Positions 31,075-33,843 of a DNA stretch of 64,000 bases are shown one piece after another (within the stretch, counting starts at the first letter, position 1; the number at the start of each line of letters is the position of its first letter). Source of the stretch: Opitutaceae bacterium EW11 (GTDB lineage Bacteria > Verrucomicrobiota > Verrucomicrobiia > Opitutales > Opitutaceae); NCBI GenBank assembly GCA_003054665.1, contig QAYY01000002.1, forward strand, positions 248,001 to 312,000. The letters run 5' to 3'. Position numbers and translations under genes: made by a program. Under the pieces are notes generated by a model. That model was not told where the DNA came from and ran no database searches. It saw only the letters and a list, made by a program, of their open reading frames with translations.

Positions 31075-32577
31075 GTGCTTTCCGCATTCACTAACTCGCT
31101 GAAGATCCCTGAGCTGCGCTCCCGGATTTTCTACACATTGGCGCTGTTGTTCGTCGCGCGCGTCGGCGCCCACATCCCGCTGCCGGGCATCGACCCGAAG
31201 CCGCTTCAGGATTTCTTCGCCGCACAGACTGCGGCGGGAGCTGGCTCGATGGTCGGCTTGTACAACATGTTTACCGGCGGTGCGCTGGTGAAAGGCGCCG
31301 TTTGCGCGCTGGGCATCATGCCGTACATCAGCGCCTCGATTATTTTCCAGCTGATGACCGCGGTAGTTCCGCAGCTCAGCCGGCTCCAGCAAGAGGGTGA
31401 TGTTGGAAGACAGAAACTGACTCAGTACACCCGCTATGCGACGGTGCTGATCTGTTTGGTGCAAGGCACTTTGCTGATTCTTGCATTGGAAAACCCCGGT
31501 CGGTTGTTTCCGGGGTACACCGTAGAGCAATACGGAGCGATCGTGATCGTTTCGAAGACTTACTTCCTCATCACCTCCGTCATCTTCATGACGGCCGGCA
31601 CGCTGCTTTTGATGTGGCTCGGAGAGCAGATCACTCAGCGCGGCATCGGCAACGGTGTGTCGCTCTTGATCACGATCGGCATTTTGCAGGATATCCCCGG
31701 TGCGGCTCAGGCAACCTACAAGCTTTTCTTCGCTCCCGTGGGAGTGGCCAAGCTCGGGCTCCCGCAAGGCATCGTGATGGTTCTCCTGTTCGTGATCGTG
31801 ACCATGGGAATTATCATGGTGGTGCAAGGGCAGCGGAAGATTCCGGTGCAGTACGCGAAGCGCGTGGTCGGCAACAAGGTGATGGGAGGGCAGAGCTCGT
31901 TCCTTCCCCTGAAGGTCAATTACTCCGGCGTCATGCCTGTCATCTTTGCCAGCGCCATTCTGCTCTTCCCGCAGCAGATCTTCTCCCAGCTCGGTGCCGC
32001 GATGAATTGGAAGTGGATGGTTGAGTTTGCGAACAATCTGCTCCGCGGTCACTGGACGTACTACTCGGGCTATACCGTGCTGATTCTGTTCTTCAGCTAC
32101 TTCTGGGTTTCCGTGATGTTTAAGCCCATTCAGATCGCCGACGACCTGAAGAAATACGGCGGCTACATTCCCGGTGTTCGCCCCGGTGAACCCACGGCCA
32201 ACTTCTTGGATTTCATCATGACCCGGATGACTCTGGCTGGCGCGATCTTCCTCACGGTGATCGCGGTGACTCCGGACGTCCTTCTGTTCGAAATCAACGT
32301 TCCGCAGCGTATCGCTGCGTTCTTCGGCGGAACAGGAATGCTGATCACGGTTGGTGTCATTCTGGACACGATGCGCCAGATCGAGACCTTCCTTTTACAG
32401 CGCCACTATGACGGCTTCCTCAAGAAGGGCCGCATCCGGGCGCGCAGCAACGCGGCCATCGGAGCCCTTGGTGAAGCCGCCGATATGAAGACGGTCGGCA
32501 AACTTTGGATTGCGGTCGGCACGCTCTTTGTGATCGGCCTTGCGGCTTGGACGGTCAAATACCTCCAGACGCACTAA
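31075..32577 (+). CDS. secY: Preprotein translocase subunit SecY
   Basis: 500 residues from a GTG start, longer than E. coli SecY (443). Ten membrane segments can be followed, starting with RIFYTLALLFVARVGAHIPLPGID. The cytoplasmic loop DLKKYGGYIPGVRPGEPT is the family signature before helix 9. With SecE (6149) and SecA (60341) it makes the main export channel. Extra length is spread over loops between helices 3-4 and 6-7. Confidence 0.97.
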   Translation: MLSAFTNSLKIPELRSRIFYTLALLFVARVGAHIPLPGIDPKPLQDFFAAQTAAGAGSMVGLYNMFTGGALVKGAVCALGIMPYISASIIFQLMTAVVPQLSRLQQEGDVGRQKLTQYTRYATVLICLVQGTLLILALENPGRLFPGYTVEQYGAIVIVSKTYFLITSVIFMTAGTLLLMWLGEQITQRGIGNGVSLLITIGILQDIPGAAQATYKLFFAPVGVAKLGLPQGIVMVLLFVIVTMGIIMVVQGQRKIPVQYAKRVVGNKVMGGQSSFLPLKVNYSGVMPVIFASAILLFPQQIFSQLGAAMNWKWMVEFANNLLRGHWTYYSGYTVLILFFSYFWVSVMFKPIQIADDLKKYGGYIPGVRPGEPTANFLDFIMTRMTLAGAIFLTVIAVTPDVLLFEINVPQRIAAFFGGTGMLITVGVILDTMRQIETFLLQRHYDGFLKKGRIRARSNAAIGALGEAADMKTVGKLWIAVGTLFVIGLAAWTVKYLQTH

Positions 32578-32590
32578 TTCGTGCTTTACT

Positions 32591-33061
32591 TTGGCCGTAG
32601 CGCCTGTCATTTCCGACCTCTTTTCGCAGTTTGGCCCTGTAGCCAGAGTTAAGCTGCTGATCCTCGGTTCCTCCGGTGTTTCAACCGATTCCCTGATGGG
32701 CCGCCTCCGTTCTTTGAATTTTGAGCACGTCTCTCCCGCCGATCTGCTGTCGCAGGAGATTTCGCGTCGCACCCCGTTGGGCATCAAGGCCGAGCGGGCG
32801 ACCAGGGGCGGTCCTGCCGTCCCTGGCGAAACCATGGTCGCGTTGATGCGGCGCTGGTTTTGGGCGCGCAAACCTGATGCGGGTTTCGCCCTCACGGGCT
32901 TCCCGGCTACGTTGCTCCAAGCCAAGGTTTTTGATGAATGGCTCGACGCCCGCGGCGAAGCGCTCAATGGAGTGCTCGCTACGTACGGCGCGGACAAGTC
33001 CATCGTCTGCCACTATCGCCAGCTCGGGCTGCTCTTGCAGACGAGCGAACTCGCCGCCTGA
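32591..33061 (+). CDS. Adenylate kinase relic without catalytic residues
   Basis: 156 residues from TTG at 32591, 13 bases behind secY; an ATG at 32540 inside secY would add 17 residues. The fold is recognisably adenylate-kinase CORE: VKLLILGSSGVSTDSL, VSPADLLSQEI, GETMVALMRRW, GFALTGFPATLLQAKVFDEW. Yet the P-loop has Thr32 where the Walker lysine belongs, the AMP-site Arg is Ser54, and DGFPRT has become TGFPAT (Asp to Thr102, Arg to Ala106). The frame ends before any LID domain. The place between secY and map is the classic adk position. The frame is intact and overlaps map by one base, so it is probably translated; catalytic activity is very unlikely. A real adk is expected elsewhere. Confidence 0.8.
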   Translation: MAVAPVISDLFSQFGPVARVKLLILGSSGVSTDSLMGRLRSLNFEHVSPADLLSQEISRRTPLGIKAERATRGGPAVPGETMVALMRRWFWARKPDAGFALTGFPATLLQAKVFDEWLDARGEALNGVLATYGADKSIVCHYRQLGLLLQTSELAA

Positions 33062-33843
33062 TGATTCCCATCAAGTCCAAAGAGGGGATTACGCGGATGC
33101 GCGAGTCCTGTGCTATCGCGGCCGCCGTCTTGCAGCGACTCAAAGATCGCGTGCAGCCCGGCATTTCTACCTACGACTTGGATCAAGCTGCCCGCGAAAT
33201 CATCGCGAGCTACGGAGCCCGAAGCGCCTGCTATGGATACCAACTCGGCTCACGCCGGTATCCGGCGTACAGCTGCTTGTCGGTGAACGACGAGGTCGTT
33301 CACGGCATTGGCTCACTGAAGCGTATTCTTCGAGAAGGGGACATCATCTCCCTGGATATCGTAGTCGAGTACAACGGGTATATTGGCGACAACGCCTACA
33401 CCGTCGCGATCGGCCAGATTCCTCCTCGCGTTCAGGAACTCCTCCGCGTCACGCAAGAGGCCCTGGAGATCGGTATCCGTCACGCCGTTGTGGGAAACCG
33501 CATCGGCGACATTTCGGAGTCGGTCCAAAAACACGTCGAGTCGCGCGGCTTTTCCGTCGTTCGCGAGATGGTTGGCCATGGCGTTGGTGTCTCGATGCAC
33601 GAAGAGCCGCAGATCCCAAACTTCCTCGACCGGCCCAAGAAGCGGACTGATCTGATTCGCCCTGGAATGACCCTCGCCATCGAGCCCATGGTCAACATGG
33701 GTGGCGCGCGAACGAAGACGTTGAGTGACGGATGGACGGTGGTGACCTCTGACGGCGCCCCCTCCGCTCACTTCGAACACACAGTGCTCACGTCAGAAAA
33801 AGGCCCGGAAATCCTGACGATTGCCCGGCCAGATCTCCTCTGA
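33061..33843 (+). CDS. map: Methionine aminopeptidase, type I
   Basis: 260 residues from the ATG that shares base 33061 with the upstream stop (TGATG). The metal ligands of the pita-bread fold are visible: Asp in SLDIVVEYNGYIGDNAYTV, His in GHGVGVSMHEEPQIPNF, Glu in LAIEPMVN and the final Glu in FEHTVLT. HGIG provides the substrate His. It removes the initiator Met from new proteins. infA and rpmJ, often placed behind map, are not present. Confidence 0.97.
   Translation: MIPIKSKEGITRMRESCAIAAAVLQRLKDRVQPGISTYDLDQAAREIIASYGARSACYGYQLGSRRYPAYSCLSVNDEVVHGIGSLKRILREGDIISLDIVVEYNGYIGDNAYTVAIGQIPPRVQELLRVTQEALEIGIRHAVVGNRIGDISESVQKHVESRGFSVVREMVGHGVGVSMHEEPQIPNFLDRPKKRTDLIRPGMTLAIEPMVNMGGARTKTLSDGWTVVTSDGAPSAHFEHTVLTSEKGPEILTIARPDLL

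Follow-up and report, generated by a model that had tools for sequence, protein, structure and literature searches.

Why should Opitutaceae bacterium EW11 carry between secY and map a gene that is recognizably derived from adenylate kinase, yet has lost the residues of catalysis? An earlier note on this DNA proposed a pseudoenzyme retained for a non-catalytic role such as nucleotide sensing, protein binding or translational coupling to map. The window analysed here, a stretch of 64,000 nt, contains the last part of the spc operon together with the beginning of the alpha operon, placing the reading frame inside a ribosomal-protein operon. Its relevant features are as follows, with the names of secY, map, rpsM, rpsK, rpsD and rpoA taken from their translations.

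31075–32577, forward strand: secY, the upstream neighbour of the ORF, adjoining it in 110 of 110 loci
32584–32589, forward strand: CTTTAC motif just 3' of the secY stop, present too in basal family members without the ORF
32591–33061, forward strand: P0001, a pseudo-adenylate-kinase ORF of 156 aa, a remnant of the Adk CORE without the P-loop lysine and the LID
33061–33843, forward strand: map (methionine aminopeptidase), followed by rpsM, rpsK, rpsD and rpoA

The 156-aa frame is intact, as the earlier note described; it starts with TTG, and its TGA stop (33059–33061) shares one base with the ATG of map (33061). In 102 of 109 main loci and in 12 of 12 basal loci CTTTAC lies no more than 45 nt from the stop of secY, compared with 19 of 2200 control windows. 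At 32584–32625 it is followed by a pyrimidine stretch, CTCTTTT, which is also found in family members lacking the ORF, and we note the spacing between the two elements.

A pseudo-adenylate kinase at the secY–map locus

P0001 shares common descent and the CORE fold with adenylate kinase. It scores 46 bits against Pfam ADK (PF00406; cut-off 26.8) and 54.2 bits against the best NCBIfam adk model (cut-off 187), and a profile search of PDB sequences returns human AK2 as the best match (E 4.9e-13), with the C-terminal part past the LID as a second, weak stretch. The structure prediction called for in the earlier note gives an Adk fold (AlphaFold mean pLDDT 80.1, pTM 0.72) whose best structural match is 1dvr_A (Foldseek E 1.6e-8). 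Alignment with E. coli Adk places Thr32 at Lys13, Ser54 at Arg36, Thr102 at Asp84 and Ala106 at Arg88; the P-loop site reads GSSGVSTDS, which departs from GxxGxGK and varies across the family, TGFPAT stands in place of DGFPRT, and the LID with its catalytic arginines is absent from P0001. The retained CORE pattern and the changes at Thr32, Ser54, TGFPAT and the LID that had been reported are thus all seen again in this alignment. At the Arg88 position 110 relatives have Ala in 105 cases and Arg in four. With catalytic residues lost and the protein under purifying selection (see below), P0001 is by its sequence a pseudoenzyme from which catalysis is not expected, and it is probably a binding protein.

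Matches to P0001 are present in 124 of 150 family genomes, some of them being other Adk-like proteins. In all 110 family loci fetched first (L012–L121, 40 genera by count, out of the 124 matching genomes) the order is secY, open frame, map, with no stops, identities to P0001 of 38–66% among the matches listed, and a frame end that lies between -9 and +16 nt relative to map; the ORF and map abut or overlap across the loci read. As to the other 14 matching genomes, G013 and G061 were read through map and G109, G126 and G143 through secY, six (G027, G029, G035, G041, G066 and G069) were read later, neither map nor secY gave a match in G132, and the loci read do not include those of G014 and G113. 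Among the 26 genomes without a P0001 match, G011, G086, G091, G101, G102, G136 and G137 were left out, and nine family genomes without a map match at E 1e-20 are left out of all statements about the locus. A second set of genome contigs (the best 80 of 170 stretches encoding a relative, 46 of them with a protein identical to one among the 110) has the three-gene order in 79 of 80 loci, the 80th being cut by a contig end. Named records with the locus include Ereboglobus sp. PH5-10, MAGs labelled Lacunisphaera and Opitutus, and IMCC26134. Two records labelled as Akkermansia muciniphila MAGs (loci L173 and L199) have the Opitutaceae type of secY–ORF–map, and are probably mislabelled; and one assembly (G142) carries the locus twice, on separate contigs (L095 and L331), perhaps from two mixed strains.

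The dN/dS comparison proposed in the earlier note indicates selection. By NG86 over 56 independent pairs, omega is 0.44 overall and 0.17 for residues 83–126. A separate calculation by segment gives 0.59 for residues 1–36, and 0.121 (residues 83–91), 0.178 (112–126) and 0.286 (139–149) for segments that lie beside the RNA blocks described below, such that purifying selection on the protein holds outside the RNA as well. Trp89, Trp117, Arg87 and Arg121 are invariant in 143 of 143 sequences. We consider it very likely that the protein is under selection. Neither lack of a second adk nor homologues with stops and a dN/dS near one, the findings that the earlier note held to count against its reading, was encountered, two decayed copies excepted.

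The second adk is, however, not a canonical one: no Adk above the TIGR01351 cut-off is present in the EW11 genome (99.99% complete by estimate), and the sole full candidate found is an Adk-like protein with a P-loop and DGFPRT.

L002 1297–2550 (G000:C11): P0002, a long-type adenylate kinase of 417 aa with extensions at both ends

P0002 contains GAPGAGKGT, DGFPRT and a LID-like Arg-x-x-Asp..Arg segment; the Arg36 position is not Arg in alignment with E. coli Adk, and the C-terminal extension has no Pfam match above cut-off. Judged by these motifs, it is likely to be the replacement, working adenylate kinase. Matches of the P0002 type occur in 11 of 11 genomes tested from other Opitutales families (that in G269 covers residues 37–283 only and has two internal TGA codons), and are clear in 9 of 13 family genomes, several of which were picked for having no or a weak match in the family-wide Adk search, with fragments in G076 and G083 and none in G010 and G104. 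Among 23 further genomes of the class, one (G159) has the type at full length and G238 has a short stretch only. In 11 sister-family genomes map directly follows secY, with a spacer of 4–107 nt and no adk between, and the outgroup genome G154 has the classical secY–adk–map order with an adk that has a P-loop, DGFPRT and a cysteine LID. From this distribution, the canonical adk was probably displaced at an early point in the history of the order by the long type, which is now widespread there; the order appears to run largely on this unusual long adenylate kinase.

Several related observations concern Adk genes at large. An Adk above cut-off, single or tandem, is present in 48 of 150 family genomes, and some family genomes encode proteins of ~480 aa with two tandem Adk domains (L122–L133, e.g. 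G113:C26 and G021:C68). The P0002-type gene of G159 (L292, G159:C103; 70% identity) lies outside the order and reflects contamination or transfer. Conserved genes of two family f3 genomes, map in L266 (G225) and the long Adk at G269:C5:72963-73655, contain in-frame TGA codons, from frameshift, error or another genetic code.

Frozen codons and a predicted structured RNA within the frame

In the dN/dS run, third positions of residues 39–60 were seen to vary hardly more than first positions, and this conservation at the nucleotide level is new relative to the reading in the earlier note. Across 143 sequences single codons are used for Arg40 (CGT, 126/126), Ser41 (TCT, 142/142), Ala97 (GCG, 138/138) and Ala106 (GCT, 138/138). 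The frozen blocks comprise residues 40–42 and 45–48 (CGT TCT TTG .. GAG CAC GTC TCT), residues 56–58 (GAG ATT TCG), residues 94–97 (AAA 139/140, GAT 136/138 and GCG, with Pro95 free as CCT or CCC) and residues 104–109 (CCG 140/143, GCT, ACG 138/139 and CTC 138/140, with Leu108 free). Nearby conserved residues have free codons, six for Arg121, five for Arg87 and four each for Gly98 and Gly146, and third-position differences per codon are 0.029 in the blocks against 0.18–0.25 in neighbouring protein-conserved stretches. Codon homozygosity exceeds 0.9 in 17 of 51 testable columns of the ORF, 4 of 318 of secY and none of 145 of map at the same loci, whereas that expected from codon usage (0.25–0.68) is below the frozen columns; comparison of the ORF with secY plus map (4/463) gives a Fisher p of 2.6e-15, which serves as a yardstick, common descent making the P0001 columns non-independent. 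An overlapping or antisense gene was considered and rejected, since no alternative frame is open in all of the RNA cores (the ORF frame is open in 106 of 107 and the best others in 73 of 107).

The frozen blocks coincide with segments that are predicted to pair as RNA.

32705–32921, forward strand: conserved structured RNA core, with helix P1 enclosing three hairpins in a four-way junction
32723–32730, forward strand: P1 5' strand, GAGCACGU
32732–32759, forward strand: P2 hairpin UCUC..GAGA, the upper stem variable and compensating
32760–32768, forward strand: P3 5' strand, UUUCGCGUC
32863–32872, forward strand: P3 3' strand, GGCGCGCAAA, containing a single bulged C
32879–32907, forward strand: P4 hairpin GCGGG..CCCGGC
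32909–32917, forward strand: P1 3' strand, ACGUUGCUC, with one bulge

In the consensus fold, derived from the aligned DNA of 35 diverse sequences, P1 GAGCACGU pairs with ACGYUGCUC and P3 UUUCGCG with CGCG-C-AAA. The RNA is ~170–220 nt long, with length variation mostly in the apical part of P3 (34–97 nt), and has many invariant unpaired letters. Alignment A3 (35 of 107 sequences, thinned to <80% core identity and including the two decayed copies L243 and L244) has 92.8% of 1188 cells paired and 11 pairs changed on both sides, in 38 cells as opposed to 12.5 in shuffles; alignment A4 (89 matches from 99 sources, including the motif-less L109 and L117), which is fitted to the model and leans towards structure, has 16 such pairs and 82 cells against 30.5. 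None of 500 shuffles reaches any of five measures of covariation. Relatedness by itself can lift sequences above their shuffles in the absence of any structure, and a control with slid partners guards against this in part: in A3, sliding by 1–3 columns lowers pairing to 30–53%, and over both alignments the slid control gives 30–58%. Shuffling the synonymous codons within each gene gave a core less stable than the native one in 33 of 33 cases (mean z of the native core -2.3), and 46 G-U cells against 23 A-C cells favour the sense strand, other mismatches accounting for 62 cells. P1 and P4 are nearly invariant, and the case for them comes from this invariance and from folding sequences singly; the covariation therefore comes from P2, two outer pairs of P3 and the inner pairs of P4; some outer P3 and P4 pairs fail in up to 39 of 89 sequences. 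The covariance model R1 scores 190.3 bits at 32705–32921, a value that is high by construction as this sequence is in the model. We hold with great confidence that the conserved RNA, as a predicted fold, is real, and it would explain together the frozen codons, the compensatory pairs and the survival of letters in decayed copies.

The RNA does not correspond to any described class in our searches. At gathering scores Rfam yields only two tRNAs in the whole window, both elsewhere; a permissive search of the stretch (E up to 10) returns only P37 (E 3.4, 17.4 of 50 bits), that of six related loci gives three sub-threshold matches, all outside the core, and ARAGORN finds no tRNA or tmRNA at the RNA stretch. 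With no Rfam match, it would be an unclassified new structured RNA in the spc–alpha operon of a family that is large and environmental. A resemblance to the TPP riboswitch and the hammerhead core, limited to a few letters, was dropped, as no such model matched and the pairing differs. As regards 16S mimicry, which we keep as a lead, one block matches E. coli 16S positions 378–392 in 14 of 15 letters (0/200 shuffles), the three other blocks and the whole core are at chance against E. coli 16S, and there is no such match in the 16S of the organism's own genome or of four relatives.

Two decayed copies, each from a single metagenome-like assembly, show that conservation of the letters is independent of the protein, with the frame broken in one of them only. 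L243 (G061, genus g19) has a frameshift, so that the reading frame of the first blocks differs from that of the last, and all three frames contain stops. L244 (G075, genus g45) has one uninterrupted frame that begins at the stop of secY and ends on the start of map, and translation of this copy may continue; by reading, its shortened protein is devoid of Trp and of the RRWFW, DEW and C-terminal signatures. L243 keeps 71 and L244 68 of the 80 conserved letters of the RNA core, as against 14 and 7 of the 27 conserved letters 3' of the core that are protein-only, and two intact sisters of each have 78–80 of 80 and 26–27 of 27. The P2 hairpin of L243 is nearly perfect with letters of its own, and R1 scores L243 at 121.0 bits and L244 at 91.8 bits, both being in the training set of the model. 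The two decays look independent because the nearest relatives in the secY trees keep intact ORFs. RNA letters thus outlast the conserved residues of the protein in two genera.

Distribution of the protein and the RNA

The protein is also found without the RNA. Among 113 spacer sequences 107 have seven or all of the eight motifs, with no more than one mismatch apiece, and six lack them (L109, L112, L115, L117, L120 and L251); in seven further loci the motifs are absent from L325–L328 and present in L329 and L331, and the contig of L330 ends after the first four. Ten loci in all keep the pseudoenzyme without RNA motifs. Two of the loci, L326 and L327, have a LID-like segment with cysteine pairs and no P-loop lysine, the only such loci read, and because they keep the LID without this lysine they suggest that the P-loop was lost before the LID. 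Four further genera (12 genomes) have rpsM after secY, with neither ORF nor map there. In four family genera (L245–L264 in part and L273–L284) map is gone from the ribosomal operon, and at most of those loci the best map lies beside an RmuC-like gene (named from its translation).

The RNA-bearing tips form one clade in both secY trees, although the node is weakly supported, at 0.377 in tree 1 (130 tips, midpoint rooting without an outgroup) and 0.434 in tree 2 (139 tips, one partial outgroup), and the two trees disagree at their deepest branches, which are unreliable. A single gain of the RNA is for this reason the simplest reading, not a proven one. R1 matches one place per matching genome, and wherever it scores strongly the position is between secY and map. 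In a class sample of 384 genomes, scanned with strict filters through which weak matches are lost, it matches 31 of 38 family members (E 2.4e-27 or better), and outside the family there are two marginal matches among 346 genomes (E 1e-3 and 8e-3 per genome), about chance level. A 55-genome search gave one marginal match (E 0.026) across 11 sister-family genomes, and protein-bearing, motif-less family genomes score 16.9–46.9 bits, as shared coding ancestry would give, with no match in G041. The sister families do without the RNA, and so do those members of the family that fall outside its clade.

A probable gene for both a protein and an RNA, and alternative explanations

We favour, as the likely account, that the locus is a dual-purpose gene derived from a displaced adk and specifies both a pseudoenzyme and a structured RNA, the role of the protein fading in places. 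The canonical adk would have been displaced by a second kinase, and the copy between secY and map would have lost its P-loop and then its LID. A structured RNA would then have arisen within the message of the pseudoenzyme ORF in one clade of the family, and the protein may have been shed through a frameshift in one genus and, in another, stripped of its conserved features within an open frame, the RNA persisting in both. The RNA would be part of the ribosomal-protein operon mRNA, acting in cis. As the ORF runs through the fold, a translating ribosome would open it, and folding would be restricted to RNA in front of the ribosomes or in the gaps separating them, or to RNA already processed; while ribosomes are not melting it, the RNA could bind a ribosomal protein or other ligand and thereby control how strongly the ORF is expressed, along with map, through translational coupling, and the alpha-operon genes that follow. 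The distance from the end of P1 to map is a median of 146 nt (105 loci), and a cis-element sensing translation or a ribosomal protein would fit the place and the conservation. We are evenly divided as to whether the RNA does act in cis on the downstream genes, and incline slightly to the broader reading that this is a bacterial transition from protein gene to RNA gene with its steps still alive, the RNA being a new regulator of the operon for ribosomal proteins and RNA polymerase alpha.

The non-catalytic role proposed in the earlier note stands in so far as a pseudoenzyme persists under selection and abuts map, but sensing, binding or coupling fall short as a full account because they leave the frozen codons, the compensatory pairs and the survival of letters in decayed copies unexplained. 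For the same reasons it is very improbable that the protein alone is selected, for ligand sensing or protein binding, and that codon freezing is an effect of translation. The low omega of residues 83–91, 112–126 and 139–149, the four invariant Trp and Arg residues and the ten loci with protein and no RNA motifs would all suit such an explanation, but the freezing exceeds what codon usage predicts, is located in base-paired blocks with compensatory changes, and outlives the protein in L243 and L244, both of which largely contradict it. An ordinary decaying pseudogene could be seen in these two copies and in the omega of 0.59 for residues 1–36; for intact copies it is refuted, and we give it practically no weight, given the 110 loci without a stop, the 38–66% identity among the matches listed, and the omega of 0.17 in residues 83–126.

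Two further explanations accept that the letters themselves are conserved. A DNA element, either a protein-binding site or a recombination signal, would account for conservation of letters and not residues, but is highly unlikely in view of the long-range pairing, the one-sided G-U excess on the sense strand and the concentration of length variation in the apical part of P3. More serious, and still unlikely, is that the operon transcript is processed to release a small RNA acting in trans, or a portion of some larger RNA, whose place before map would be historical. Persistence of the letters where the protein has decayed, the single R1 match per genome, the many invariant unpaired letters and the want of an evident expression platform before map speak for it; against it, strong R1 matches always lie between secY and map, and nothing points to a separate transcript, with no promoter-like site found (in a scan for the sigma-70 consensus only). 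Terminator-like sites are at chance level (2 found, 1.3 expected). The dual-purpose gene remains the account that we prefer. Changes from protein gene to RNA gene are mostly inferred from their end states, chiefly in vertebrates, whereas here several stages are found side by side within a single bacterial family, always at the same position of a strongly conserved operon, and the functions of protein and RNA at the secY–map locus can be separated by comparison. The locus also carries a warning that conservation of residues in a pseudoenzyme can be disguised conservation of an RNA.

Known ribosomal-protein leaders act in the spc and alpha operons, and in E. coli the autoregulatory ones include that for S4 on the alpha operon and that for S8 inside the spc operon. 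The secY–map RNA resembles these as a structured RNA within the spc–alpha ribosomal-protein operon, and differs in that it runs through a translated ORF and has no Rfam match. Candidate ribosomal-protein leaders have been described (PMC7247131), and in the main text of that paper Verrucomicrobia, Opitutus and secY are not mentioned. Among the matches listed in a literature search whose scope excluded most subscription journals, no title concerns the locus, the RNA or the pseudo-Adk. Relative to adenylate kinase (PF00406), P0001 has the same CORE, locus and fold, and has lost the P-loop lysine, the AMP-site arginines, DGFPRT and the LID. SgrS and VcdRP (PMC4021124, PMC8672173) likewise combine a protein and an RNA role in one transcript, but the secY–map RNA lies inside an operon gene of ~140–170 codons with enzymatic descent and is not a small stand-alone RNA. 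Xist and other lncRNA fossils of protein genes (PMC2430539, PMC5577775) offer a parallel in direction, the coding role fading and the RNA role staying as it does here; unlike them, the secY–map RNA is bacterial, compact and structured, and the dual-function intermediate is its common state.
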